Notes under the pieces: generated by a model
Told to the model about the DNA's origin: nothing
The model's database searches: none
The model's input: only the letters and a program-made list of their open reading frames with translations
Assembly (NCBI RefSeq): GCF_018417535.1
Contig: NZ_CP070978.1
Location: 992,001 to 1,056,000, forward strand
Length of the DNA stretch: 64,000 nt
Direction: 5' to 3'
Source of the DNA: Burkholderia pyrrocinia
GTDB taxonomy: Bacteria > Pseudomonadota > Gammaproteobacteria > Burkholderiales > Burkholderiaceae
Shown: one piece after another, positions 34,892 to 50,843 of the stretch
Numbering within the stretch: the stretch's first letter is position 1
Layout: every line of letters begins with the position of its first letter
Made by a program: the position numbers and the translations under genes

Positions 34892-36418
34892 ATGAACGCC
34901 GCAGTTCCACAGACCACCCTCGCCCTGCCCACCGCCAAGCTGCTGATCGACGGCGCGTTCGTCGAATCGCAAAGCGCCGAATGGGGCGACATCGTCAACC
35001 CCGCAACGCAGGAAACGCTCGGGCGCGTACCGTACGCGACGCTCGATGAGGTCGACGCCGCGATCGCGTCCGCGCAGCGCGCATTCCAGACGTGGAAGAC
35101 GACGGCGATCGGCGCGCGGCTGCGCATCATGCTGAAGTTCCAGGATCTCGTGCGCCGCAATCTCGAACGGATCGCGCACACGCTGACGGCCGAGCAAGGC
35201 AAGACGCTGCCCGACGCGCAGGGCGACATCTTCCGCGGCCTTGAAGTGGTCGAGCACGCCTGCTCGATCGGCACGCTGCAGCAAGGCGAATTCGCGGAGA
35301 ACGTCGCGGGCGGCGTCGATACCTACACGCTGCGCCAGCCGATTGGCGTGTGCGCGGGCATCACGCCGTTCAACTTCCCCGGGATGATTCCGCTGTGGAT
35401 GTTCCCGATGGCGATCGTGTGCGGCAACACGTTCGTGCTGAAGCCGTCGGAGCAGGATCCGCTGTCGACGATGCAACTCGTCGAACTCGCGATCGAGGCC
35501 GGCGTGCCGAAAGGGGTACTGAACGTCGTGCACGGCGGCAAGACCGTGGTCGACCGCCTGTGCACGCATCCGGACATCAAGGCGATCTCGTTCGTCGGCT
35601 CGACGCGCGTCGGCACGCACGTGTACAACCTCGGCAGCCAGCACGGCAAGCGCGTGCAGTCGATGATGGGCGCGAAGAACCACGCGGTCGTACTGCCCGA
35701 TGCGCACCGCGAACAATCGATCAACGCGCTCGTCGGCGCGGGCTTCGGCGCGGCCGGCCAGCGCTGCATGGCGACGTCGGTCGTCGTGCTGGTCGGCCAG
35801 GCGCGCGACTGGCTGCCCGAGCTCGTCGAGAAGGCGAAGGTGCTGAAGATCAACGCCGGTCATGAGCCGGGCACCGATGTCGGGCCCGTCGTGTCGAAGG
35901 CCGCGCTTGCGCGCATCACCGCGCTGATCGACGAAGGCGTGAAGGCCGGCGCGAAGCTCGAGCTCGACGGCCGCGGCGTGAAGGTGCCCGGCTACGAGCA
36001 CGGCAACTTCGTCGGCCCGACGATCTTCTCGGGCGTGACGACCGACATGTCGATCTATACGGAAGAAATCTTCGGGCCGGTGGTCGTCGTGCTCGAAGCT
36101 GACACGCTCGACGAAGCAATCGCACTCGTCAACCGCAACCCGATGGGCAACGGCGTTGGGTTGTTCACGCAGAGCGGCGCGGCCGCGCGCAAGTTCCAGA
36201 GCGAGATCGACATCGGCCAGGTCGGCATCAACATCCCGATTCCGGTGCCGGTGCCCTACTTCAGCTTCACGGGTTCGCGCGGCTCGAAGCTCGGCGATCT
36301 CGGCCCGTACGGCAAGCAGGTCGTGCAGTTCTACACGCAGACGAAGACGGTCACCGCGCGCTGGTTCGACGACGACGCGACGGCCGGCGGCGTGAACACG
36401 ACGATCGCGCTGCGCTGA
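34892..36418 (+). CDS. mmsA: Methylmalonate-semialdehyde dehydrogenase (CoA-acylating)
   Basis: A 508-residue ALDH-superfamily enzyme converting methylmalonate semialdehyde, NAD and CoA to propionyl-CoA and CO2 in valine catabolism. Family-specific segments: [20 protein letters not shown] near residue 155 (MMSDH rather than general ALDH), [12 protein letters not shown] near 230, [14 protein letters not shown] near 255 (the usual catalytic Glu region reads MGAKNH, as expected for CoA-dependent members), and Cys in [11 protein letters not shown] near 291. CGGAGAG precedes ATG 34892. Followed by the 49-bp repeats and mmsB. Confidence 0.95.
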
Positions 36419-36423
36419 GCGAT

Positions 36424-36615
36424 GCATGGGATCGGACCAAGCGCTGAAGCGCCGAGTCCGGTCGACCGCGAAGCATGGGACCGGACCAAGCGCTGAAGCG
36501 CCGAGTCCGGTCGACCGCGAAGCATGGGACCGGACCAAGCGCTGAAGCGCCAAGTCCGGTCGACCGCGAAGCATGGGACCGGACTAAGCGCTGAAGCGCC
36601 AAGTCCGGTCGACAA
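36424..36615. repeat. Four tandem copies of a 49-bp hairpin-forming repeat
   Basis: Copies begin at 36424, 36473, 36522 and 36571, each starting GCATGGGAYCGGAC and differing at only a few positions. Each holds nested inverted repeats: CCGGAC...GTCCGG outside and GCGCT-GA-AGCGC inside, plus the palindrome GGTCGACC between units. The array fills the space from the mmsA stop to the mmsB ribosome site. Confidence 0.9.
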
Positions 36616-36629
36616 CGAGGAGGCTACGC

Positions 36630-37520
36630 ATGGAAATCGCATTCATCGGGCTCGGCAACATGGGCGGCCCCATGGCCGCCAACCTGCTCAAGGCCGGTCA
36701 CACGCTGACCGTGTTCGACCTCGACGCGAACGCGGTCGACGCCGCGGTGCGCGCGGGCGCGACGGCGGCCGGCTCGCCGCGCGACGCGGCCGCGCGCGGG
36801 ACGATCGTGATCACGATGCTGCCGGCCGCGCAGCACGTGCGCGCCGTCTACCTCGGCGACGACGGCGTGCTGGCCGGCGCGCGCGCCGGCGCGACGCTGA
36901 TCGACTGCAGCACGATCGATCCCGGCACCGTGCGCGCGGTGGCCGAAGCCGCCGCGCAGCGCGATTTCCCGCTCGCCGACGCGCCCGTGTCGGGCGGCAC
37001 CGGCGGCGCGCAGGCCGGCACGCTGACCTTCATGGTCGGCGCGGACGCCGCGCTGTTCGAACGTATCCGCCCCGTGCTGCTCGGCATGGGCAAGAACGTC
37101 GTGCATTGCGGCGGCACGGGCACCGGGCAGATCGCGAAGATCTGCAACAACCTGCTGCTCGGGATCTCGATGATGGGCGTGTCGGAAGCAATGGCGCTCG
37201 GCGCCGCGCTCGGCATCGAGCCGGCCGTGCTGGCCGGCATCATCAACACGTCGACCGGCCGCTGCTGGAGCTCGGACACCTGTAACCCGTATCCGGGCGT
37301 GAGCGAAACGACGCCCGCCGCGCGCGACTATGCGGGCGGCTTCGCGGCGAACCTGATGCTGAAGGATCTCGGACTCGCGACCGAAGCCGCACGAAGCGCG
37401 CGTCAGCCGGTGTGGATGGGCGCGCTCGCGCAGCAGCTTTATCAGTCGATGAGCCAGCAGGGGCTCGGCACGCTCGATTTCTCCGCGTGCGTGAAGCTGT
37501 ACGAGGCGCAGCCCGCATAG
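36630..37520 (+). CDS. mmsB: 3-hydroxyisobutyrate dehydrogenase
   Basis: A 296-residue NAD-dependent beta-hydroxyacid dehydrogenase oxidising 3-hydroxyisobutyrate to methylmalonate semialdehyde, the substrate of MmsA. N-terminal dinucleotide motif FIGLGNMGGPMAANLLKAGH (residues 5-24), substrate motif DAPVSGGTGGAQAGTL near 118, and the catalytic Lys in GTGQIAKICNNLLLG near 172. AGGAGG precedes ATG 36630. It is separated from mmsA by the repeat array, which may influence relative expression; the two would otherwise form one operon. Confidence 0.95.
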   Translation: MEIAFIGLGNMGGPMAANLLKAGHTLTVFDLDANAVDAAVRAGATAAGSPRDAAARGTIVITMLPAAQHVRAVYLGDDGVLAGARAGATLIDCSTIDPGTVRAVAEAAAQRDFPLADAPVSGGTGGAQAGTLTFMVGADAALFERIRPVLLGMGKNVVHCGGTGTGQIAKICNNLLLGISMMGVSEAMALGAALGIEPAVLAGIINTSTGRCWSSDTCNPYPGVSETTPAARDYAGGFAANLMLKDLGLATEAARSARQPVWMGALAQQLYQSMSQQGLGTLDFSACVKLYEAQPA

Positions 37521-38209: not shown

Positions 38210-40621
38210 TCAATGCGCGCGCTCCTGCCTGATTCTCGCCGACGCTTCCGCCAGGTTCCGCCACGCCGGCTGCCCCGGCGCATAGCGCGCGCGGATGTAC
38301 GCGGCAAGCTCGGCCATCTGCCGGTCGTCGAACGCGTCGCCAAAGCCCGGCATGTAGCCGAGCTGGTCGGTGGCCGGCTGGTCGATCCCGTGATGCAGCA
38401 CGCGCAGCAGGTTGTCCGGCGTCGCCTGGCTGACGCTCGTGTTGAGCCCCATCAGCGGGCGCACGCCGAAATGTCCGACACCGCCGGATTCCGCGTGACA
38501 GACCGCGCACGCCGCGTCGAACGCACGACGGCCGTTTTCGAGGCCGAGCGTCGCGACGGTTTCCGCGCCGCGTGCCTGGCGGGTAGCCACGTCGGCGGCC
38601 ACCGCGGCCTCGACAGGTGGCGACAGCGACGCCAGATAGTGCGCGATCGCGCGCACGTCGGTCTCGGGCAGCGACGCGAGCCCCGCGACGACGGGCGCCA
38701 TCGGCCCGGTCGCCACGCCGTGCTGCGCGGAGAAACCCGTGCGCAGATAGTCGAACAGCGCGCCTTCGGTCCACGGCACGGGTGCGGCCGGCGACGCGAC
38801 GAGCGGCGGCGCGACCCATCCTTCCGCTTCGCCGCCCGACAGGTACGCGAAGCCGCCCTTCTCCGCACCCAGAGCGTTGCGCGGCGTGTGGCACGCGCCG
38901 CAGTGCCCGGCGCCGTCGACCAGATACTTGCCGCGATTCCACATCGCGGAGCGTGCCGGGTCCGGCGCGAACGGCCGCGCATCGTGAAACAGCCAGTTCC
39001 AGCCGGCGACGAGGCGCCGCTGGTCGAGCGGGAACGGCAGCTTCGTCTTCGGCGGCACATGCTTCACCGGCGGCTGCGACATCAGGTACGCATAGAGCGC
39101 GAGCAGGTCGGGCTCGCTCAGCTGCGCGAACGCCGTGTACGGAAACGCCGGGTACAGGTGCGTGCCGTCGCGCGAGATGCCTTCGCGCATTGCACGCGCG
39201 AACGCCGGATACGACCACGTGCCGATACCGGTTTCCGGATCGGGCGTGAGGTTCGTCGTGTAGATCGTGCCGAACGGCGTATCGAGCGCGAGCCCGCCCG
39301 CGTTGGTCGCGCCGCCGGGCGCGGTGTGGCATACCGCGCAATCGCCGGCGATCGCGACCTGGCGGCCGCGTTCGAGTGTCGCGGCGCTCCACATCGCACC
39401 ATCCGCGCCGCCGGGCGCGACCGGTGCGATCGGTGCTGGCCCCGGCAGGATCGCGCACGCGAGCCCGATCAGCCCGCCGACCACGCCGCCCGCGCCGCCG
39501 CCGGCCAGCCAGCGGCGCCAGTGCGATGTGCGGCGCGGCGCGACATGCAGCCCGTCGCCGGAATCGACCGACGCCGGTTGCGCGAGTGCTGCGCGAATGC
39601 GCTCGGCATCGAACGGCGGTGCACGAAAACGCACCCCCGTCGCGTCGTACAGCGCGTTCGCGATCGCCGCCGCGGCCGGTGCCGCCGCCTGCTCGACCCG
39701 GCGCGCGTCGTGCGCGGACAATTCGCCGTGCGCGCGATGCGCCGCGTCGTCGAACGCCACCAGTTCATGCGCAATCGCGCCCGGCTGCGCGCCGGCATCG
39801 GTCTCGTCATGCGCGGGCCGCGCGGACAAGCGTGCGCCCATCACGCGCGAGATCGCCGCCTCGATCTGCCACGCGGGCACGCCGGCCATCGACGCGCCGC
39901 CCGGCTCTCCGGCACCCTGCCCGGCCACGACGCGCCGCACCGCGACGTCGCCGGTCGCGCGGTCGACATCGAGATCGACGACCCATGCGGACCAGCGCGT
40001 GTCGCCATCACGTGCTGCATCGTCGTCCGCTCGTTCGTCGCCGGACGGCGCGGCACGCGCGCCGGCGCCATCGAACGCGAAGCCGCGGCCGCTGACGCGC
40101 GAACGCACGCTCGGGTCGGCCGCGACCGGTGCGCCCCATGCGGCGCGTTCGCTGACCATCCGGATAATCTCGCGTGGCCCCGCATCCCGCGCTGCATCCA
40201 GATGCTGCAGGCGCAACGCGACCGGGTCGCGCCGCAACGCGCCCGCGAGTTCGTCCACGAAGGATTCGCGGGCGAACACGTGCGCATGCCCGGGAATCGC
40301 GCGGCCGGCGTCGGCCAATTCGATCGACGTCTGCGCGTGCCGGTAGACGAACGGCGACGCGGGGCGGGAATCCGTGCCCTCGGTCGTCGAACTGCGAAGA
40401 TCGTCCGTTACCGCGCCGGATGCCTGCGCGCGATAGCGCCACGTCGTCATCCGCCCGTCGGGCGCGGTCCGCGTTTCGACATCGAGCGATGCCTGCGCGT
40501 GCGTATCGCCGATCGGCCATTCGTAGCGTGCGTGATGCGTGCGCGATGCGTCGGCTTCATCGCGCGGCGCGTGCGTCACCACACGCTCCGGCTCGGCGGG
40601 CAGGCTCAGGTCATGCTTCAT
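38210..40621 (-). CDS. Triheme cytochrome c fused to a degenerate molybdopterin-hydroxylase C-domain (NicB cytochrome part)
   Basis: An 803-residue protein with two parts. Residues 1 to about 360 resemble the C-terminal half of xanthine-dehydrogenase-type large subunits (ESFVDELAGALRRDPVALRL, WSAWVVDLDVDRATGDVAV, ANALYDATGVRFRAPPF). They align with matching segments of the Mo subunit at 46250 but lack its GAGESA segment with the catalytic Glu. After a glycine-rich hydrophobic anchor near 370-395 come three c-type haem sites: CAVCH near 427, CGACH near 572 and CAVCH near 704. In Pseudomonas putida such a triheme domain is the C-terminus of NicB and passes electrons from nicotinate hydroxylation to the respiratory chain. 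ATG 40619-40621 overlaps the nicA stop by 11 bp. Confidence 0.88.
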   Translation of the reverse strand: MKHDLSLPAEPERVVTHAPRDEADASRTHHARYEWPIGDTHAQASLDVETRTAPDGRMTTWRYRAQASGAVTDDLRSSTTEGTDSRPASPFVYRHAQTSIELADAGRAIPGHAHVFARESFVDELAGALRRDPVALRLQHLDAARDAGPREIIRMVSERAAWGAPVAADPSVRSRVSGRGFAFDGAGARAAPSGDERADDDAARDGDTRWSAWVVDLDVDRATGDVAVRRVVAGQGAGEPGGASMAGVPAWQIEAAISRVMGARLSARPAHDETDAGAQPGAIAHELVAFDDAAHRAHGELSAHDARRVEQAAAPAAAAIANALYDATGVRFRAPPFDAERIRAALAQPASVDSGDGLHVAPRRTSHWRRWLAGGGAGGVVGGLIGLACAILPGPAPIAPVAPGGADGAMWSAATLERGRQVAIAGDCAVCHTAPGGATNAGGLALDTPFGTIYTTNLTPDPETGIGTWSYPAFARAMREGISRDGTHLYPAFPYTAFAQLSEPDLLALYAYLMSQPPVKHVPPKTKLPFPLDQRRLVAGWNWLFHDARPFAPDPARSAMWNRGKYLVDGAGHCGACHTPRNALGAEKGGFAYLSGGEAEGWVAPPLVASPAAPVPWTEGALFDYLRTGFSAQHGVATGPMAPVVAGLASLPETDVRAIAHYLASLSPPVEAAVAADVATRQARGAETVATLGLENGRRAFDAACAVCHAESGGVGHFGVRPLMGLNTSVSQATPDNLLRVLHHGIDQPATDQLGYMPGFGDAFDDRQMAELAAYIRARYAPGQPAWRNLAEASARIRQERAH

Positions 40622-41114
40622 CGCCGTCCCGCAGATAGCGTGCGGCGCGATGCACGGCCCGGATGATCTCCAGGTGCGTGCCGCAGCGGCACAGGTTGAA
40701 ACGCAGCGCATCGCGGATCGCCGCATCGTCCGGCGCGGGGTTGCGGTCGAGCAGCGCCTTCGTGCTCATGATCATCCCGTTCAGGCAATAACCGCATTGC
40801 GCCGCCTGCTCGTCGATGAACGCGCGCTGGATCGGATGCGGCGCGTCGCGCGACCCGAGCCCTTCCAGCGTCGTGACGTCGCGCCCGCTCGCGGCGGCGG
40901 CCGGCACGACGCACGAACGCGTGGCCTGCCCGTCGACGAGCACCGTGCATGCGCCGCACTGCCCGAGCCCGCAGCCGTATTTCGGGCCGTTGAGCGCGCA
41001 GTCGTTGCGCAGGACCAGCAGCAGCGGCGCGTCGGGCGCCGCATCGTCGAAGGTGTGCGGCGTGCCGTTCACGCGAAACGCCAGCGGCCGCGGCTGAGAA
41101 GCGGAATGGGACAT
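40611..41114 (-). CDS. nicA: Nicotinate dehydrogenase [2Fe-2S] subunit NicA
   Basis: A 167-residue small subunit carrying two [2Fe-2S] clusters. The plant-type site is YGCGLGQCGACTVLVDG near residues 46-62 with a further Cys in TRSCVVP; the second site is QCGYCLNGMIM near 112 and FNLCRCGTH near 145. Nicotinate dehydrogenase hydroxylates nicotinate to 6-hydroxynicotinate with water as oxygen donor, and this subunit relays electrons from molybdenum to the cytochrome. It overlaps the cytochrome gene by 11 bp. It lies downstream of nicC on the same strand, separated by 173 bp. The molybdenum subunit is encoded apart, at 46250. Confidence 0.9.
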   Translation of the reverse strand: MSHSASQPRPLAFRVNGTPHTFDDAAPDAPLLLVLRNDCALNGPKYGCGLGQCGACTVLVDGQATRSCVVPAAAASGRDVTTLEGLGSRDAPHPIQRAFIDEQAAQCGYCLNGMIMSTKALLDRNPAPDDAAIRDALRFNLCRCGTHLEIIRAVHRAARYLRDGDEA

Positions 41115-41287
41115 GAATGGATCCGGAATGCGGCGTGCGGGCCGAGGGTCGGCCGGCGGCTGGCACCGCCGCCGGCTGGCACCCGCCGGCGCGCCGGCCT
41201 GACATATAACACGCCGAAATGCGCGCGGTCCGGCGCATCGATCCCCGCGACGGCAAAGCGCCGGCCGGCGCGGGCATCACGTGCGCG

Positions 41288-42544
<1,257 letters not shown>

Positions 42545-42647
42545 GAGGATTGTTGTTCGTTGTCTCGGCATTCGGGAAAACACCAATAATTCGTCAAAAC
42601 ACCAGGTGCACAAACGATCTGCACGCGCTGAACATCATTTTGATCCA

Positions 42648-42676
42648 TTGCCATTTTCAAATGTACACACTAGACT
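42648..42676 (+). promoter_or_regulatory. nicE operon promoter with NicR-like operator (site B)
   Basis: TTGCCA (42648-42653), 17 bp, TAGACT (42671-42676). The motif ATGTACACACT (42661-42671, 9 of 11 matches to site A) fills the end of the spacer, a position suited to repression. Confidence 0.65.
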
Positions 42677-42743
42677 TTGCTCGAAATCCGGCGATCCCGC
42701 GCCAGCGTGCCGCCCCACCCTTACCGACACGGAGCCTCCCGTC

Positions 42744-43496
42744 ATGAGCAAGACCTACCGCATCGGCCAGATCGTGCCGAGTTCCAACACGACGATGGAA
42801 ACCGAGATCCCCGCGATGCTGCGGCTGCGCGAAACGATCCGCCCCGAGCGCTTCACGTATCACTCGAGCCGGATGCGGATGAAGAAGGTCGTCAAGGAGG
42901 AACTGGCGGCGATGGATGCCGAATCCGACCGCTGCGCGGTGGAACTCAGCGATGCGCGCGTCGACGTGCTCGGCTATGCGTGCCTGGTCGCGATCATGGC
43001 GATGGGGCACGGCTACCACCGCGTGTCGCAGGCGCGCCTGACGAAGCACACGGCCGACAACGGCGCACAGGCACCCGTACTGACGAGCGCGGGTGCGCTC
43101 GTCGACGCGCTGAAGGTGATCGGCGCGAAGCGCATCGTCGTCGTCGCGCCGTACATGTTGCCGCTCACCGAACTCGTGGTCGACTACATCCGCAACGAAG
43201 GCTTTGAAGTGCTCGGCTATCGCGCGCTGGAGATTCCCGACAACCTCGACGTCGGCCGTCACGATCCGGCGCGCTTGCCCGATATCGTGAAGACGCTGCC
43301 GTACCAGGACGCCGACGCGATCGTGCTGTCCGCATGCGTGCAAATGCCGTCGCTGCCGGCCGTCGCGAAGGTCGAGGCGATGACGGGCAAGCCCGTGATC
43401 ACGGCCGCGATCGCGACGACCTACGCGATGTTGCGCGAGCTCGATCTCGAGCCCGTCGTGCCCGGCGCCGGCGCGCTGCTGTCCGGCGCGTACTGA
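42744..43496 (+). CDS. nicE: Maleate cis-trans isomerase NicE
   Basis: A 250-residue Asp/Glu-racemase-superfamily enzyme isomerising maleate to fumarate, the last step of the pathway. It begins YRIGQIVPSSNTTMETEIPA, the maleate-isomerase signature. The two active-site cysteines are in VLGYACLVAIMAMG near 80 and IVLSACVQMPSLPAV near 197. Length matches known maleate isomerases. GGAG 9 bases before ATG 42744. It is the first gene of the plus-strand nic operon, divergent from nicC. Confidence 0.94.
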   Translation: MSKTYRIGQIVPSSNTTMETEIPAMLRLRETIRPERFTYHSSRMRMKKVVKEELAAMDAESDRCAVELSDARVDVLGYACLVAIMAMGHGYHRVSQARLTKHTADNGAQAPVLTSAGALVDALKVIGAKRIVVVAPYMLPLTELVVDYIRNEGFEVLGYRALEIPDNLDVGRHDPARLPDIVKTLPYQDADAIVLSACVQMPSLPAVAKVEAMTGKPVITAAIATTYAMLRELDLEPVVPGAGALLSGAY

Positions 43497-43523
43497 ACGC
43501 AGCCCTTCCGACGGAGCCCATCC

Positions 43524-44354
43524 ATGCCCTCGACCTTCCTGACCGGCGCGAACATCCGCGCGAACGGCATCCGCCAGCACTACCTGCGCTACGGCGGCGC
43601 GACCGGCGCGCGCGCGTCGCGCCCCGCGATCGTGCTGATCCCCGGCATCACGAGCCCCGCGATCACGTGGGGCTTCGTCGGCGAGACATTCGGCGCGGCG
43701 TTCGACACCTATGTGCTCGACGTGCGCGGCCGCGGGCTGTCCGACGCGTCGCCGTCGCTCGACTACAGCCTCGATGCGCAGGCCGACGATATCGCGGCGC
43801 TCGTCGCCGCGCTCGGCCTGCCGCGCACGAGCCTCGTCGGCCATTCGATGGGCGCCCGGATCGCCGCGCGCGCGGCGCGGCGCGGCATCCGCGGGCTCGA
43901 ATCGGTCGTGCTCGTCGATCCGCCCGTGTCCGGCCCGAACCGCCGCGACTATCCGGGCAAGCTGCCGTGGTACATCGACTCGATGGCGCTCGCGCGCGCC
44001 GGCACCGACGCCGAAGGCATGCGCGCGTTCTGCCCGACCTGGACCGATGCGGAACTGCAATTGCGCGCCGAATGGCTGCATACGTGCGACGAGCGCGCGG
44101 TGCGCGCGACGTACGAAGGGTTCCATAGCGACGATTTCCATGCAGACGCCGCGCAGTTGGCGGTGCCGTCGCTGCTGATCACGGCCGAACGCGGCGACGT
44201 GGTGCGCGACGACGATGTCGCGGAACTGCAGCGCGCGACGCCGTCGATGCAGCACGTGCGCGTGCCCGATGCGGGCCACATGATCCCGTGGGACAACGCA
44301 CCGGGCTTCTACGCGGCGTTCGGCGACTTCCTCGGCGCGCCGCTCGCGGCCTGA
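43524..44354 (+). CDS. nicD: N-formylmaleamate deformylase NicD
   Basis: A 276-residue alpha/beta hydrolase removing formate from N-formylmaleamate to give maleamate. LIPGITSPAITWGFVGETFG near residue 40 (oxyanion region), YVLDVRGRGLSD near 67, nucleophile Ser in LVGHSMGARIAARA near 108, Asp in the VLITAERGDVV-type strand near 220, and His in VPDAGHMIPWDN near 252. Slightly longer than the P. putida enzyme, with a modest N-terminal extension. ATG 43524 follows GGAG. Between nicE and nicX in the operon. Confidence 0.93.
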   Translation: MPSTFLTGANIRANGIRQHYLRYGGATGARASRPAIVLIPGITSPAITWGFVGETFGAAFDTYVLDVRGRGLSDASPSLDYSLDAQADDIAALVAALGLPRTSLVGHSMGARIAARAARRGIRGLESVVLVDPPVSGPNRRDYPGKLPWYIDSMALARAGTDAEGMRAFCPTWTDAELQLRAEWLHTCDERAVRATYEGFHSDDFHADAAQLAVPSLLITAERGDVVRDDDVAELQRATPSMQHVRVPDAGHMIPWDNAPGFYAAFGDFLGAPLAA

Positions 44355-44389
44355 TCCCCTTTTCCTTCACGCCTTTACCGGAGCCGACG

Positions 44390-45430
44390 ATGCCAGTCAG
44401 CGACACCCAACTGATCGACGCGTGGAAGCAGGTGCTCACGCTGTCGCGCCTCGAACCGGGCCAGACCGTCACGATCCTGACGAGCGCGGCCACCCACCCG
44501 CAGACGCTGTCGTGCGCGCTGATCGCGACGCAATCGATGGGCGCGATCGTCAACCGGCTCGACCTGCCGCCGGTAAACGGCGACAAGGCGTTCAGCCGCG
44601 ACCCGCTCGCGTATCTCGGCACGACGCCGCTGACCGGCAACAAGGCCGCGATCGCCGCGCTGCGCGAGAGCGACCTCGTGCTCGACCTGATGACGCTGCT
44701 GTTCTCGCCCGAACAGCACGAGATCCTGAAATCCGGCACGAAGATCCTGCTCGCGGTCGAGCCGCCCGAAGTGCTCGTGCGGATGGTGCCGACGCCGGCC
44801 GACCGCACGCGCGTGCTCGCCGCGGCGAAGCAAATCGCCGCCGCCCGCGAGATGCGCGTAACGTCGGCGGCCGGCACCGCCCTCGTGTGCCCGCTCGGCG
44901 AGTTCCCGCCGACCGCCGAATACGGCTTCGTCGACGCGCCGGGCCGCTGGGATCACTGGCCGAGCGGCTTCGCGCTGACCTACCCGAACGACCGCACCGC
45001 GCGCGGCACGATCGTGATCGATCGCGGCGACATCCTGCTGCCGCAGAAGCACTACGTGAGCGAGCCGATCGCGCTGACCGTCGAAGGCGGTTATGCGACG
45101 CGCATCGAAGGCGGCGTCGACGCCGACCTGCTGCGCGACTACATGGAGACCTTCGCCGACCCCGAAGGCTATGCGATCTCGCATATCGGCTGGGGCCTGC
45201 AGCCGCGTGCGCGCTGGTCGACGCTCGGGCTGTACGACCGCGAGGCGACGATCGGGATGGACGCGCGCGCGTTCGAGGGCAACTTCCTGTTCTCGCTCGG
45301 CCCGAACAACGAAGGCGGCGGCAACCGCACGACCACCTGCCACATCGACATCCCGCTGCGCCGCTGCACGGTCGAACTCGACGGCGAAACCGTCGTGCGC
45401 GACGGCCGCGTGACCGATCAACCCGCGTGA
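44390..45430 (+). CDS. nicX: 2,5-dihydroxypyridine 5,6-dioxygenase NicX
   Basis: A 346-residue non-haem Fe(II) extradiol dioxygenase opening 2,5-dihydroxypyridine to N-formylmaleamate. It has the M29-like fold unique to this enzyme: QTVTILTSAATHPQTLSCAL near 22 and an N-terminal Rossmann half. The C-terminal half holds the iron site: SHIGWGLQPRARW near 264 and the His-x-Asp of TTCHIDIPLRRCTVEL near 320, positions that match the ligands I recall for P. putida NicX. ATG 44390 is preceded by GGAGCCGAC. It is 35 bp after nicD and 19 bp before nicF. Confidence 0.94.
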   Translation: MPVSDTQLIDAWKQVLTLSRLEPGQTVTILTSAATHPQTLSCALIATQSMGAIVNRLDLPPVNGDKAFSRDPLAYLGTTPLTGNKAAIAALRESDLVLDLMTLLFSPEQHEILKSGTKILLAVEPPEVLVRMVPTPADRTRVLAAAKQIAAAREMRVTSAAGTALVCPLGEFPPTAEYGFVDAPGRWDHWPSGFALTYPNDRTARGTIVIDRGDILLPQKHYVSEPIALTVEGGYATRIEGGVDADLLRDYMETFADPEGYAISHIGWGLQPRARWSTLGLYDREATIGMDARAFEGNFLFSLGPNNEGGGNRTTTCHIDIPLRRCTVELDGETVVRDGRVTDQPA

Positions 45431-45449
45431 CCAACGAGCGCCCGACACC

Positions 45450-46103
45450 ATGAACGATCTTTCCCGCCACGCCGAAGCGAACGTCTACCGCCAGCAGGGT
45501 TTCGGCACGCCGCTGCCGCCGCACGGCAACATCGGCCTGCTGATCGTCGACTTCGTGGTCGGCTTCGCCGATCCCGCGACGTTCGGCGGCGGCAACATCG
45601 CGCCGGCGATCGCGCGCACGACGCGCGCGCTCGCGCTGGCGCGCGAACGCGGCTGGCCCGTCGCGCACAGCCGCATCGTGTACGCGGACGACGGCAGCGA
45701 CGACAACGTGTTCTCGCTGAAGGTGCCCGGCATGGCGACGCTGACCGAGCACCATCCGAACAGCGCGATCGTGCCCGAACTCACGCCCGCCGCTGGCGAA
45801 CTCGTCGTGCGCAAGACCGTGCCGTCGGCGTTCTTCGGTACGCAACTTGCCCCATGGCTCGCGCAGCGCGCGGTGCAGACGCTGCTCGTCGCGGGTGCCG
45901 TGACGAGCGGCTGCGTACGCGCGAGCGTGGTCGACGCGATGTCGCACGGATTCCGCCCGCTCGTGCTCGCCGATTGCGTCGGCGATCGCGCGATCGCGCC
46001 GCACGACGCGAACCTGTTCGACATGCAGCAGAAATATGCAGCCGTGATGCCGCTCGACGACGCGATCGCGGCGATCGACGCCGTCCAGGCGCACGCGCGC
46101 TGA
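45450..46103 (+). CDS. nicF: Maleamate amidohydrolase NicF
   Basis: A 217-residue cysteine hydrolase of the isochorismatase family turning maleamate into maleate and ammonia. Catalytic triad: Asp in GLLIVDFVVGFADP near 30, Lys in LVVRKTVPSAFFGT near 118, and Cys in AGAVTSGCVRASVVDAM near 155. Length fits known NicF. ATG 45450 lies 19 bp after the nicX stop in the same operon. The ammonia released here is the nitrogen gain of the pathway. Confidence 0.94.
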   Translation: MNDLSRHAEANVYRQQGFGTPLPPHGNIGLLIVDFVVGFADPATFGGGNIAPAIARTTRALALARERGWPVAHSRIVYADDGSDDNVFSLKVPGMATLTEHHPNSAIVPELTPAAGELVVRKTVPSAFFGTQLAPWLAQRAVQTLLVAGAVTSGCVRASVVDAMSHGFRPLVLADCVGDRAIAPHDANLFDMQQKYAAVMPLDDAIAAIDAVQAHAR

Positions 46104-46249
46104 GTCGCGACGGATCGCGGGCCGCGCATGCGTCGCCCGCGATTGACGCTGCGCTTTTGGCGGCCTAGATTGGCTTGACGCGCGCCGTTCGAACCCGCCC
46201 CGACGCAACCGGTCGCCGGCCGCGCCGCTCCCGACAGGACACCTCCCCC

Positions 46250-48535
46250 GTGAACCGCTCCGAACTGCTCGTGCGCAACGGCTGCCTGACCGTGATCCGG
46301 CCGCCCGCGCCGCCCGTCAAGCCGGCGCCCGGCCAGCCGGGCAGCCTGTCGTCCTACGTGCCCGCGCTGCCCGAAGTCTTCGTCGCGATTCTCGACGACG
46401 GCCGCATCCTCGCGTTCAACGGACACGTCGATCTCGGCACCGGCATCCGCACGTCGCTCGCGCAGATCGTCGCGGAGGAACTCGACGTGCCGGCCGCGCG
46501 CGTGACGATGGTGCTCGGCGACACGGCCGCGACACCGAACCAGGGCCCGACCATCGCGAGCGCGACGATCCAGATTTCCGCGACGCCGCTGCGCTGCGCG
46601 GCCGCGCAGGCGCGCCACGCGCTGCTGGCGCTCGCCGCCGAGCGGTTCGGCGTCGACGCAGCGCGGCTGGCCATCGACGACGGAACCATTTCGGCGAACG
46701 GGCAAAGCGCGACGTTCGCGGCGCTCGTTGCCGCGCATCGCATCGCGCTGACGCTGGACCTGAACACCCGCACGAAGGATCCCGCCCGCTACCGGATCGT
46801 CGGCAAGTCGTCGCCGCGTGTCGACCTGCCCGCGAAAGCGACCGGCGAGCTCACGTTCGTGCACGACATGCGCGTGCCGGGCATGCTGCACGGTCGTGTC
46901 GTGCGGCCACCGTATGCGGGCCACGACAGCGGCCCGTTCGTCGGCACCTCGCTCGTCGACGTCGATCGCGCGTCGGTCGCCGACGTGCCGGGGCTCGTGG
47001 CCGTCGTCGCGATCGGCGATTTCGTCGGCGTCGTCGCCGAACGCGAGGAGCATGCGATCCGCGCGGCGCGCCAGTTGCGCGTGACGTGGCGGCCGCATGC
47101 CGCGCTGCCGCCGCTCGACGAGCCGGCCGCCGCGATCGCCGCCGCGCCGGCCAGACGCCGCGTGCTGCTCGACGAAGGCGATGTGGACGCCGCACGCGCG
47201 CAGCCCGACACGATCACGCTGTCGCGCACCTATGCGTGGCCGTTCCAGATGCACGGCTCGATCGGTCCGTCATGCGCGCTTGCCGACTACCGGGAACCCG
47301 GCGACGGCCGAATCACCGTGTGGTCCGGCACGCAGAATCCCGTGTCGCTGCGCTACGACCTCGCGACGCTCGTCGCGCGCGACGAAGCCGATTTCGACGT
47401 CGTGCGGATGGAAGCGGCAGGCTGCTACGGCCGCAACGGCGCGGACGACGTGTGCGGCGATGCGCTGCTGCTGTCGCGCGCGGTCGGCCGCCCGGTACGC
47501 GTGCAGTTGTCGCGTGCGGACGAGCATCTGTGGGAACCGAAAGGCGCGGGCCAGTCGATGCAGGTGACCGGCACCGTCACGCGCGACGGCCGCCTGCTCG
47601 GCTATGACTTCACGACGCGCTATCCGTCGAACGACGCGCCGCTGCTCGCGGCATTGCTGACCGGCACGATCGCGCCCGAGCCGCGCGTGTTCGAGATGGG
47701 CGATCGCACGGCCGTATCGCCGTACGCGAGCCCGCATCGCCGCTTCGTCTGCGAGGATCTCGCGCCACTCGTGCGCGCGTCGTGGCTGCGCGGCGTGTCG
47801 GCGTTGCCGAACTCGTTCGCGCACGATGCGTTCGTCGACGAATGTGCGGCGCTGACCGGCGTCGACCCGCTCGCGTTCCGGCTGCGTCATCTGCAGGACG
47901 CGCGCGCGACCGAGCTGCTGCAGGCCGTGGCCGACCGTGCGGGCTGGACGCCGCGCGCAGAGCACACGCAGCGCGAACGCGACGGATCGCGGCTCGCGCG
48001 CGGACGCGGGATCGCGTATGCGCGCTACGTGCACAGCCGCTTCCCCGGTTTCGGCGCGGCGTGGTCGGCATGGATCGTCGACCTGAGCGTCGATCGCGTG
48101 ACGGGCGAGATACGCATCGAACGCGTGACGGTCGGCCAGGACACGGGCACGATGATCAACCCGGATGGCGTGCGCCACCAGATCCACGGCAACGTGATCC
48201 AGGTATTGAGCCGCACGCTGAAGGAGCGCGTGCGGTTCGCGGACGGCAAGGTCGCGTCGCGCGAATGGGCGAGCTATCCGATCCTGACGTTCGCGGAAGT
48301 GCCGGACGTCGATGTCGTGCTGATGCCGAGGCAAGGCGAGCCGCCGCTCGGCGCGGGCGAATCGGCATCGGTGCCGGGTCCGGCCGCGGTTGCGAACGCG
48401 TTGTTCGATGCGACCGGCGTGCGGTTCTACGCGCCGCCGTTTACGCCCGAAACGGTCCGCGCCGCGCTGCGCGAGGCCGGCCGGCTGATGAGCGCCGACG
48501 AAGCCGCTGCGACCGCAACCGCCGGTGCGGTGTAG
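46250..48535 (+). CDS. nicB: Nicotinate dehydrogenase molybdopterin subunit (NicB catalytic part)
   Basis: A 761-residue xanthine-dehydrogenase-family large subunit holding the molybdenum cofactor. N-terminal segment FNGHVDLGTGIRTSLAQIVA near 62, VLGDTAATPNQGPTIASAT near 88, the a/b hammerhead domain about 180-300 (SPRVDLPAKATGELTFVHDM), Mo-binding segments near 385-400 (EAAGCYGRNGADDV), and the catalytic Glu in PPLGAGESASVPGPAAVANA near 705. Unlike P. putida NicB it has no cytochrome domain; that part is the separate protein at 38210. It starts at GTG 46250 with AGGAC upstream. It is the last gene of the plus-strand nic operon and is inferred to assemble with NicA and the cytochrome. Confidence 0.88.
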   Translation: MNRSELLVRNGCLTVIRPPAPPVKPAPGQPGSLSSYVPALPEVFVAILDDGRILAFNGHVDLGTGIRTSLAQIVAEELDVPAARVTMVLGDTAATPNQGPTIASATIQISATPLRCAAAQARHALLALAAERFGVDAARLAIDDGTISANGQSATFAALVAAHRIALTLDLNTRTKDPARYRIVGKSSPRVDLPAKATGELTFVHDMRVPGMLHGRVVRPPYAGHDSGPFVGTSLVDVDRASVADVPGLVAVVAIGDFVGVVAEREEHAIRAARQLRVTWRPHAALPPLDEPAAAIAAAPARRRVLLDEGDVDAARAQPDTITLSRTYAWPFQMHGSIGPSCALADYREPGDGRITVWSGTQNPVSLRYDLATLVARDEADFDVVRMEAAGCYGRNGADDVCGDALLLSRAVGRPVRVQLSRADEHLWEPKGAGQSMQVTGTVTRDGRLLGYDFTTRYPSNDAPLLAALLTGTIAPEPRVFEMGDRTAVSPYASPHRRFVCEDLAPLVRASWLRGVSALPNSFAHDAFVDECAALTGVDPLAFRLRHLQDARATELLQAVADRAGWTPRAEHTQRERDGSRLARGRGIAYARYVHSRFPGFGAAWSAWIVDLSVDRVTGEIRIERVTVGQDTGTMINPDGVRHQIHGNVIQVLSRTLKERVRFADGKVASREWASYPILTFAEVPDVDVVLMPRQGEPPLGAGESASVPGPAAVANALFDATGVRFYAPPFTPETVRAALREAGRLMSADEAAATATAGAV

Positions 48536-48557: not shown

Positions 48558-49004
48558 TCACGCTTCGCCGTCTTCTTCCATCATCTTGCGCAGCAGGAAC
48601 TGCAGCGCGACACGTTCGCCCGGATTGAGTGCGCCATACGTACGCTCGGTCACCTGCCGCGCGAACGGCACCGTGCGGTCGATCAGCGCGAGGCCGGTCG
48701 CGGTCGCGCGCACGATCAGCTTGCGGCCGTCGTTCGGGTCGGGCAGCACCTCGATCAGCGCACGTGCCTTCAAGCGCTCGACGACGCCGCGAATCGTCGC
48801 CTGGTCGATCGCGGTCGCCTTGACGATGTCGTTCAGCGAGCACGCCTGGCGTTCCTTGACCGCGCACAGCGTCACGAACTGCGCGGCCGTGAGATCCGAA
48901 TCGGGGATCGCTTCCTGGAAGATCGACACGTGCCGCTGATACGCGCGGCGCAGCAGGTGTCCGACCTGGTCGTGAAAGTCGTAGGAATCCTTGGAAGACG
49001 CCAT
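48558..49004 (-). CDS. nicR: MarR-family regulator NicR
   Basis: A 148-residue winged-helix repressor. Dimer helix at the N-terminus (FHDQVGHLLRRAYQRHVSIF), DNA-recognition region SLNDIVKATAIDQATIRGVV near 56-75, and the wing motif LPDPNDGRKLIVRAT near 87 typical of MarR. NicR represses nic genes in P. putida until 6-hydroxynicotinate is present; the same role is inferred here. It converges on nicB and diverges from nicT. A motif related to the nic sites lies at 49048 in its own upstream region, suggesting autoregulation. Confidence 0.9.
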   Translation of the reverse strand: MASSKDSYDFHDQVGHLLRRAYQRHVSIFQEAIPDSDLTAAQFVTLCAVKERQACSLNDIVKATAIDQATIRGVVERLKARALIEVLPDPNDGRKLIVRATATGLALIDRTVPFARQVTERTYGALNPGERVALQFLLRKMMEEDGEA

Positions 49005-49535
49005 GAAAGTGCAGGCCCGTGCCGCATGTAAGGGAAAGACAAGAAGTGTACACCCTCAATTCGGCGCGACCGGCGGCCAGGCAGCCGCTTCATTGCGGTG
49101 CATCAGAATTCGCGTCAGCCGGCACGCATCGCGCCTGACGATCGCCTGACAGCAGTGGATCGGCCGGCACCGCCGCCGGGACAGCCGGCCGCCCGTGCTC
49201 GAATCTGCTGCCGCACGCGCGTTTGCGCACTGCGGCAAGCTTTCGCGTACACACTCCATTTTTAAGTGCATACGCACGAATTTCGTGCATATTCCGGCAC
49301 GCATCCCGATCGTTTCGATGCACGATCTCGATCTTCAAAAACCTCATTAAAAGCTCGGTTTATCCTACGAAAGCGCTTGCCATGACACGTCGATTTTCAT
49401 GCCTGTGCGATTCCGTATTTTCTAGTGTGTACGCTATTTAATTGCCGTGATATACAGACTCCAGTGCGCAGCGGAACCTCCGCTCGCGTCGATCGGCCAC
49501 CCATTCATCCGTCACACTCGAACAGGGGCAATCCC
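49005..49535. promoter_or_regulatory. nicR-nicT intergenic region with three operator-like sites
   Basis: About 530 bp without a gene. GTGTACACCCT (49046-49056) lies about 45 bp upstream of nicR. GCGTACACACT at 49245-49255 faces AGTGCATACGC at 49265-49275, an inverted pair. AGTGTGTACGC (49424-49434), the exact reverse complement of the motif, lies about 100 bp before nicT in an AT-rich stretch likely to hold the nicT promoter. Confidence 0.6.
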
Positions 49536-50843
49536 ATGTCTACCGCACACCCGAGCGCCGCCGTTTCCCCCGACGACGCGCTGCACGGCAATCTCTACCG
49601 CAAGGTCACGCTGCGCCTGATCACCCTCTTCTGCCTGTGCTACTTCGCGGCCTATCTCGACCGCATCAACATCGGGCTCGCGAAACTCCAGATGCTCGAC
49701 GCGCTGAAGTTCAGCGATACCGTGTACGGGCTCGGCGCCGGCCTGTTCTTCGGCGGCTACATCCTGTTCGAAGTCCCAAGCAACCTGGTGCTGCAGCGCG
49801 TCGGCGCGAAGCTGTGGATCGCGCGGATCATGATCACGTGGGGCCTGCTGTCGGGCGCGACGATGTTCGTGCACACGCCGATGCAGTTCTACATCGTGCG
49901 GTTCCTGCTCGGCGCCGCCGAGGCCGGCTTCCTGCCGGGCGTGCTGCTGTACCTGACGCAGTGGTATCCCGATGCGCGCCGCGCACGGATCGTCGCGCTG
50001 TTCATGGTCGGCCTGCCGCTGTCGAGCATGATCGGCAGCCCGATCTCCGGCTGGATCATGCGCGCGTTCGACGGCGCGCACGGGCTCGGCGGCTGGCAGT
50101 GGCTGTTCCTGCTCGAAGCGCTGCCGTCGGTACTGCTCGGCTTCGCGGTGCTGCGCTGGCTGCCCAACAGCATCGAGTCCGCGCAATGGCTGAGCGCCGG
50201 CGAAAAGCAGGCGCTGCGCGCGAATCTCGACGCCGATCCGTCCGGCAACAAGAGCCACGCGCTCGGCAAGGCCTTCTCCGATCCGAAAGTGTGGGCGCTC
50301 GGCCTGATCGACCTGTGCGTGCTGCTCGGCCTGTATGCGGTGAGCTTCTGGCTGCCGACGATCCTGCGCGACACGGGCGTGAAGGACGCTTATCACATCG
50401 GCTGGCTGATGGTGATTCCGAATGCCGCGGCCGTGCTCGCCACGCTGTATTGCGGCGCGAGCTCCGATCGCGCGCGCGAGCGCCGCTGGCATATCGTCGT
50501 ACCGTTCATGGTGTCGGCCGTCGCGCTGGCGATCGCGGCCTCGTCGTCGCACGGCACGCTCGGGACGGTGCTGCTCTTCTCGCTGATCAACGCGGGGGCC
50601 GCGGCCGCCATGCCGGTCGTCTGGGCGTTGCCGTCCACGTTCCTGAAGGGCTCGGCCGCGGCCGGCGGGATCGCGTTCGCGTGCTCGATCGCGAACCTCG
50701 GCGGGTTCGGCAGCACCTATTTCATCGGCTGGCTGCGCGACACGTTCCATTCGCAAAGCGCGGGGCTGTATGGCTTCGCCGCGTGCATGCTGGTCGGCTG
50801 CGCCCTCGCGCTCGCGTATCCGGCGAAGCTCGTGAACCGCTGA
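49536..50843 (+). CDS. nicT: MFS transporter NicT (nicotinate uptake)
   Basis: A 435-residue 12-helix inner-membrane carrier of the anion:cation symporter (ACS) family. Typical segments: FCLCYFAAYLDRINIGLAKL near residue 35, GAGLFFGGYILFEVPSNLVL near 68, GAAEAGFLPGVLLYLTQWYP near 126, and a duplicated pattern in the second half (LKGSAAAGGIAFACSIANLG). P. putida NicT, a nicotinate importer, is of the same family and size. ATG 49536 lies after AGGGGC. Position beside nicR and shared operator motifs support the role. Confidence 0.9.
   Translation: MSTAHPSAAVSPDDALHGNLYRKVTLRLITLFCLCYFAAYLDRINIGLAKLQMLDALKFSDTVYGLGAGLFFGGYILFEVPSNLVLQRVGAKLWIARIMITWGLLSGATMFVHTPMQFYIVRFLLGAAEAGFLPGVLLYLTQWYPDARRARIVALFMVGLPLSSMIGSPISGWIMRAFDGAHGLGGWQWLFLLEALPSVLLGFAVLRWLPNSIESAQWLSAGEKQALRANLDADPSGNKSHALGKAFSDPKVWALGLIDLCVLLGLYAVSFWLPTILRDTGVKDAYHIGWLMVIPNAAAVLATLYCGASSDRARERRWHIVVPFMVSAVALAIAASSSHGTLGTVLLFSLINAGAAAAMPVVWALPSTFLKGSAAAGGIAFACSIANLGGFGSTYFIGWLRDTFHSQSAGLYGFAACMLVGCALALAYPAKLVNR

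Follow-up and report, generated by a model that had tools for sequence, protein, structure and literature searches.

The nic gene cluster of Burkholderia pyrrocinia studied here lies in a stretch of 64,000 nucleotides (contig NZ_CP070978.1, positions 992,001 to 1,056,000; hereafter the window) of a genome of 8.54 Mb in three contigs. The enzyme encoded by three of its genes, nicA, nicB1 and nicB2, is predicted to be a nicotinate dehydrogenase, which performs the first step in the breakdown of vitamin B3 (nicotinate), hydroxylation at C6 of nicotinate being assigned from the cluster context only. The [2Fe-2S] subunit expected of a NicAB-type enzyme is encoded in the same cluster (NicA), NicB1 is a complete molybdenum (Mo) chain, and NicB2 is a membrane cytochrome whose N-terminal part is the remnant of a second Mo domain (Table 1). 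This remnant has lost its catalytic residues, yet its sequence is still under selection, as is characteristic of a pseudoenzyme domain. We think it moderately probable that the enzyme is a tripartite nicotinate dehydrogenase in which the maintained pseudo-domain docks NicB1–NicA on the membrane cytochrome.

The relationship of the two Mo domains was evident from pairwise and profile comparisons. Residues 107-356 of NicB2 aligned with residues 514-750 of NicB1 at 33% identity (BLASTP, E 1e-26), a local alignment over NicB2 residues 42-356 scored 290 against a maximum of 84 among 500 shuffles, and the family profiles of the NicB2 remnant and NicB1 were collinear over NicB1 residues 214-748 (probability 100, E 2.6e-63). 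An earlier sequence-only reading of this DNA had aligned about 360 N-terminal residues of the cytochrome with the C-terminal half of the Mo chain and had called for a pairwise alignment of the two. The homology is confirmed by these values, and the extent is to be trimmed: in this genome the match covers NicB1 residues ~432-750 (the C-terminal ~40%) together with a short YxWP piece, and the first ~40 residues of the remnant are poorly conserved. No counterpart to the first ~195 residues of NicB1 was present in the NicB2 remnant rows examined; the scraps aligned before residue 195 in these rows arise because open reading frames (ORFs) were read from stop to stop, such that some rows carry residues upstream of the true starts. 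Pfam returned merely a sub-threshold piece of MoCoBD_1 (13 bits) for the N-terminus of NicB2, and the best match to NicB2 in the protein search, from Burkholderia savannae, was 92% identical over the remnant. The C-terminal part is a triheme cytochrome, with three CXXCH motifs at residues 428, 574 and 705.

The catalytic GxGES motif was lost in all 23 NicB2 rows of the alignment and kept in 19 NicB1, in three NicB of nic clusters in which Mo domain and cytochrome are fused in one chain, and in ten other fused NicB. At the catalytic column, GxGE[SP] was found in none of 128 NicB2, in keeping with the sequence-only reading, which had the N-terminal domain of the cytochrome lacking the catalytic glutamate segment. 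A surviving motif was considered and rejected, as the letters GxGE[SP] occur in 20 of the 128 NicB2, each time ~75 residues upstream of the catalytic column. Residue E310 of the window remnant falls in that column in one alignment, and glutamate is found there in only 36 of the 128. Judged by these residues, the Mo domain of NicB2 is catalytically dead in every copy examined. NicB1 has a complete xanthine-oxidase-type Mo domain with the catalytic GxGE, PF20256 and PF02738 both being over the cut-off. It had been described correctly as a chain on the strand opposite to nicA with GAGESA intact and no cytochrome; the distance of 5.6 kb from nicA given for it is that from the nicA stop (5.1 kb from the nicA start).

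The genome was searched for a fused or full-length NicB elsewhere and none was found. A hidden full-length copy was rejected, as the next-best relative of NicB1 is only 38% identical and bears a twin-arginine translocation (Tat) signal; the possibility, raised earlier, of nicotinate hydroxylation being supplied by a different full-length NicB has therefore found no candidate. The same genome encodes two more Mo dehydrogenases of the Tat type, each with a separate cytochrome of its own (our loci L121, contig C3 438345-442395, and L003).

The remnant is maintained under purifying selection, though it evolves about five-fold faster than NicB1. Over 91 species pairs, the median ratio of path lengths was 4.9 for remnant to NicB1 (range 3.0-6.3) and 1.55 for cytochrome to NicB1, and the remnant and NicB1 distances correlated at 0.95. 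In six species sets (88 pairs), the median ratio of nonsynonymous to synonymous rates by the NG86 method (omega) was 0.20-0.34 for the remnant, 0.08-0.15 for NicB1 and 0.06-0.14 for the cytochrome, and the highest value of any single remnant pair was 0.44. The synonymous distance (dS) of the remnant exceeded that of the cytochrome in five of the six sets, and alignment error or saturation may affect the omega ratios. The strongest constraint fell on remnant residues 121-160 and 201-240; over the whole set of NicB2 it fell on block 3, ten residues of which are invariant in 128/128. Residues 1-80 were least constrained (ratio of nonsynonymous to synonymous polymorphism, pN/pS, 0.5-0.8). The decay of the Mo-domain copy that was proposed earlier is incomplete, given this purifying selection and the near-invariant blocks.

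The split layout is widespread. The 80 named loci that were chosen by NicX are the best 80 of 577 confirmed, and 35 of them have NicB1 and the cytochrome, each at >50% identity, in separate genes; 44 are without a NicB1 over 50%, and one (L085) has NicB1 on a contig that ends before NicB2. With nine other loci (L118, L119, L120, L142, L172, L176, L191, L192 and L198) and the window itself, the 35 make up 45 distinct split loci, L115 being a repeat of L077 (NicB1 100% identical, contigs equally long) counted once and L193 being dropped for a NicB2 outside the contig. Each of the 45 has nicB1 on one strand and nicB2 on the other, and a cytochrome ORF that includes the remnant. They come from Burkholderia, Paraburkholderia, Caballeronia, Pandoraea, Trinickia, Bordetella and Azoarcus, plus one genome of another order (G661). 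A recent rearrangement peculiar to this genome was rejected on this count, the layout being common to Burkholderiaceae, Bordetella, Azoarcus and the one genome of another order. For the latter (L142), which is in another order of the class, transfer and age are both possible. The NicB1 of L074 (13243-14181) has only 313 residues in one frame, from a broken gene or an assembly error, and the locus was still counted. The NicX search in the genus of G663 gave a match in 0/8 genomes, and no NicB was seen beside NicX in the plasmid records L148-L151.

Comparison with fused NicB places the two chains in context. A single fused nicB gene is present in the nic clusters of Pantoea dispersa, Pseudomonas sp. 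BYT-5 and Azospirillum lipoferum. It directly follows a gene annotated as (2Fe-2S) in P. dispersa and BYT-5, and an unannotated NicA match in A. lipoferum. The BYT-5 protein was used as a stand-in for NicB of P. putida KT2440, which we take to be of the fused type. NicB1 was 56-60% identical to the Mo domains of the three fused proteins, and the NicB2 cytochrome was 54-59% identical to their cytochromes. Fused NicB shares with the window the order of Mo domain, helix and triheme cytochrome after nicA, and no Tat signal was seen in it; it differs in being a single chain with the catalytic motif intact, whereas the window encodes its active Mo domain as a protein of its own. The Pseudomonas-type arrangement is thus absent from the window, where Mo domain and cytochrome are encoded by separate genes on opposite strands. 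Taken together, NicB1 and NicB2 resemble a fused NicB with a second, dead Mo domain in addition.

Fused NicB was also found after a nicA-like gene at 12 loci of Burkholderiales (L173-L175, L177-L179, L194-L197, L199 and L201), and no match to nicC, nicD, nicE, nicX or nicF was present around these 12 in the stretch examined. Loci L143, L180 and L200 represent a third layout, in which three genes stand consecutively on one strand: a nicA-like gene, one for a Mo chain that bears a Tat signal and is 51-53% identical to NicB1, and one for a separate, remnant-free cytochrome. This layout perhaps resembles the NdhS-NdhL-NdhM set covered in the available part of a review (PMC10331938).

Trees were built from chosen subsets of 59 and 72 rows, the larger with 438 columns. 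In the 72-row tree, 25 remnants formed one clade (97/99) and 21 NicB1 formed one group (82/79). Remnants, NicB1 and the fused NicB of L173 came together (87/89) as one branch of an unresolved three-way fork, both other branches being fused NicB, and seven separate Mo chains fell outside the entire fused and split set (86/96). The fused state is the simplest ancestral one, since the remnant and NicB1 set sits among fused NicB with the separate Mo chains outside. A sister relationship between the remnant and the fused NicB of nic clusters (Pantoea, Pseudomonas, Azospirillum) was rejected (approximately unbiased (AU) test, p 0.013; groups named after the tree was seen). The position of the remnant is probable, not proven, because remnant branches are long. 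In six of the seven long rows, the remnant starts near NicB1 residue 195-225 (window numbering; BLAST against the NicB1 of the same locus, with starts placed close to the nicA stop); in L036, the seventh, divergence is too great and only the C-terminal part matches. The remnants of eight database rows and of L073 start near NicB1 residue 183-246. The remnant of the Burkholderia–Paraburkholderia branch is also without most of NicB1 ~195-310 and ~333-423.

These data fit the duplication, strand relocation and decay into a three-gene enzyme that the sequence-only reading envisaged, in trees, motifs and gene order alike, with two amendments: the decay is incomplete, and NicB1 is more likely the copy that moved, because NicB2 occupies the place of fused nicB directly after nicA. 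An ancestral fused NicB (Mo domain, helix and cytochrome, directly after nicA) would have been duplicated. The copy after nicF would have lost its cytochrome and become NicB1; the copy after nicA would have kept the cytochrome, while its Mo domain lost ~195 residues from the N-terminus along with the catalytic segment. In the Burkholderia–Paraburkholderia branch, roughly another 200 residues of the remnant would then have been lost.

The topology of NicB2 bears on the function of the remnant. Covalent c-type heme is attached in the periplasm, and one helix separates remnant and cytochrome, so that the remnant should face the cytoplasm. Lysines and arginines average 4.4 in the 15 residues before the helix and 0.6 after it, the count before being the larger in 128/128 NicB2. 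Tat signals were scored in 21 selected chains by a rule of motif and hydrophobicity, not by a trained predictor: a Tat-like signal was present in 10/10 separate-Mo relatives versus 0/11 NicB1 and fused NicB. The window NicB1 thereby departs from Tat-exported three-gene dehydrogenases, which carry the signal on the Mo chain; according to the available part of PMC7688666, a related two-chain nicotine dehydrogenase is periplasmic by virtue of the Tat signal of its Mo chain. The distribution of the signal suggests that the NicB lineage moved the active site into the cytoplasm. Possibly worn Tat-like N-termini were seen in the fused NicB of L194, L195 and L173 (e.g. L194 TRRDFHQASGVLLVTRDP). The remnant is not needed for membrane insertion, because the cytochrome of L121, in the same genome, begins right at the basic stretch and helix.

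As far as can be read from this topology, the remnant is probably the sole cytoplasmic part of NicB2. We infer that it binds NicB1, since it would be the only part within reach, its blocks are constrained and the two are co-inherited. NicB1 and NicA, neither of which shows an export signal, would work in the cytoplasm, where NicB1 would hydroxylate nicotinate and pass the electrons to NicA. The remnant would pair with NicB1, perhaps as a pseudo-dimer, and hold NicB1–NicA on the membrane, so that electrons could cross it to reach the cytochrome. Pairing by way of Mo domains is common among xanthine-oxidase-family enzymes, which makes a pseudo-dimer plausible. PaoABC is singled out in the available text of PMC3958847 as an enzyme that does not pair in this manner. 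A longer history is possible, and we advance it tentatively: a once periplasmic Mo hydroxylase may have become cytoplasmic by loss of the Tat signal, yet stayed tied to its periplasmic cytochrome by a fusion that spans the membrane helix, and after duplication and reciprocal loss the dead Mo half may have become a pseudo-dimer partner that docks the freed catalytic chain on the membrane.

Several observations weigh against the docking of NicB1–NicA by the remnant and against the descent proposed for it. The remnant is not needed in principle, as the cytochrome of the three-gene relatives L143, L180 and L200 does without one; the docking is deduced from topology and constraint alone; of 113 fused NicB, only 87 follow the lysine and arginine rule at the helix; and electron transfer from a cytoplasmic iron–sulfur (FeS) center to periplasmic hemes is unexplained, for fused NicB included. 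As to descent, the support for the NicB1 group is only that given above, and 79/29 in the smaller tree, and the NicB2 cytochromes are not one group in the cytochrome tree (five changes, deep forks open), a result that speaks neither for nor against a single origin of NicB2. In addition, the remnants, a long branch, when joined with the Tat-bearing separate Mo chains L143 and L180 were not rejected at 5% (AU p 0.059). This last result and the unresolved deep cytochrome branches would suit a remnant that came from a different Mo hydroxylase and was fused later to the cytochrome, instead of a copy of the nic NicB. We consider such an origin distinctly improbable, for the best tree groups the remnants with NicB1 and fused L173, and the order of remnant, helix and cytochrome and the place after nicA equal those of fused NicB.

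The remnant could also be a passive relic on its way out, the helix and cytochrome being all that matters. Its fast evolution relative to NicB1, its further shortening in the Burkholderia–Paraburkholderia branch and the weak constraint on its first 80 residues are what such a relic would display, but the low omega values, even in the highest pair, and the near-invariant blocks make it quite improbable, as does retention in 45/45 split loci when a cut at the helix would leave an ordinary anchored cytochrome as in L121. Selection on blocks 1-3 is silent on what these blocks contact, and the remnant may have another maintained job, namely stabilization of NicB2, insertion of the cofactor into NicB1 or binding of nicotinate. 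We regard this as unlikely: nothing specific speaks for it, and what has been lost is just what should surround the cofactor, namely the first ~195 residues and GxGES. A NicB1 that serves another substrate and does not team up with NicA and NicB2 would agree with its position on the opposite strand, 5 kb away; we consider this very improbable, as the catalytic motif is in place in none of the 128 NicB2, no second chain of the NicB1 kind was found in the genome, and NicB1 moves together with the cluster. The docking of NicB1–NicA on the membrane cytochrome by a maintained pseudo-domain remains our preferred reading.

In the cluster, nicC, nicA, nicB2 and nicR are on the minus strand, and nicE, nicD, nicX, nicF, nicB1 and nicT on the plus strand, so that nicA, nicB1 and nicB2 are three genes of one nic cluster. 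The names NicC, NicE, NicD, NicF, NicR/BpsR and NicT were given from the cluster context. Aldehyde-dehydrogenase-like and hydroxyacid-dehydrogenase-like genes, presumably mmsA and mmsB, adjoin the cluster (window 34900-37520).

Table 1. Features of the nic cluster, in window coordinates.
Feature	Position	Strand	Remarks
NicB2, Mo-domain remnant + transmembrane helix + triheme cytochrome c, 803 aa	38210..40621	-	
NicB2 residues 1-365, remnant of NicB Mo domain, by sequence catalytically dead	39527..40621	-	
Remnant block 1, residues 113-141	40199..40285	-	conserved; around FARES..DE...DPV..RL.HL
Remnant block 2, residues 210-236	39914..39994	-	conserved; WSAWVVDLDVDRATGDVAVRRVVAG
Remnant block 3, residues 312-347	39581..39688	-	most invariant; PAAAAIANA..DATGVR.R..PF; preceding catalytic GxGES gone
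Single hydrophobic helix, ~residues 372-392	39446..39508	-	K/R-rich N-terminal flank; remnant inside, cytochrome outside (predicted)
Triheme cytochrome c module	38213..39445	-	CXXCH at 39326-39340, 38888-38902, 38495-38509
NicB1, complete Mo chain, 761 aa	46250..48535	+	GTG start likely; no cytochrome; no N-terminal twin-arginine motif (relative L009 also examined)
NicB1 catalytic motif GAGES, residues 701-705, E704	48350..48364	+	
NicA, [2Fe-2S] subunit	40611..41114	-	11-base overlap with NicB2 start; PF01799 and PF00111 over cut-off
NicC-like FAD monooxygenase	41288..42526	-	name by cluster
NicE-like racemase/isomerase family protein	42738..43496	+	start approximate; name by cluster
NicD-like alpha/beta hydrolase	43524..44354	+	name by cluster
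NicX, 2,5-dihydroxypyridine dioxygenase	44381..45430	+	start approximate; relatives' annotation
NicF-like amidohydrolase	45450..46103	+	name by cluster
NicR/BpsR-like MarR regulator	48558..49004	-	name by cluster
NicT-like major facilitator superfamily (MFS) transporter	49533..50843	+	start approximate; name by cluster

Among solved structures, NicB1 and the NicB2 cytochrome have their best sequence match in the same entry, PDB 8GY3 (chains C and A, respectively). We take it to be the Gluconobacter aldehyde dehydrogenase, source organism and heme number included; our literature search returned no paper on this entry. It has separate large and cytochrome chains, and its cytochrome chain is without the Mo-derived N-terminus, the match starting at NicB2 residue 379. 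In Eubacterium barkeri (presumably the source of the nicotinate dehydrogenase in PDB 3HRD), two Mo chains together make one working Mo unit. That enzyme has a flavin subunit; in the window, by contrast, one Mo chain (NicB1) is complete by itself, and the other Mo piece, a dead one, forms part of a cytochrome chain. The likeness, from the part available of the review of nicotinate dehydrogenases that includes the three-gene NdhS-NdhL-NdhM enzyme (PMC10331938), is that the E. barkeri enzyme (NdhFSLM) is also a nicotinate hydroxylase with its Mo domain in more than one chain.

The three-gene architecture itself is already known. A tripartite nicotinate hydroxylase (NicA, NicB1, NicB2) is given for Burkholderia gladioli (NGJ1/BSR3) and Bordetella in PMC10269826, and the cluster nicB2-nicA-nicC-nicE-nicD-nicX-nicF-nicB1 for Delftia acidovorans Cs1-4 in PMC4572682. 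In the available parts of these sources, the gene set is that found here and the Delftia order from nicB2 to nicB1 is the same, but in Delftia marR and nicT are at the nicB2 end and nicB1 is called an aldehyde dehydrogenase; the same parts make no mention of a dead Mo domain in NicB2, of its origin, of selection on it or of its topology. Nor is the remnant mentioned in the available parts of PMC6837509, PMC5484106, PMC3746432, PMC8322953, PMC10293998 and PMC7688666. No description of it was found in the open-licence literature searched, and primary papers outside that literature may contain one. The well-conserved pseudo-domain is thus probably undescribed.

One caution concerns annotation: NicB2, labeled 'nicotinate dehydrogenase subunit B' in several sources, is by sequence the non-catalytic chain. 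For the family, the fused domain in full, the remnants of ~500-600 residues and those of ~360 residues constitute a natural series from a catalytic domain to a presumed docking piece. How electrons in NicAB-type enzymes get from a Mo/FeS core in the cytoplasm to a cytochrome in the periplasm becomes a testable question.

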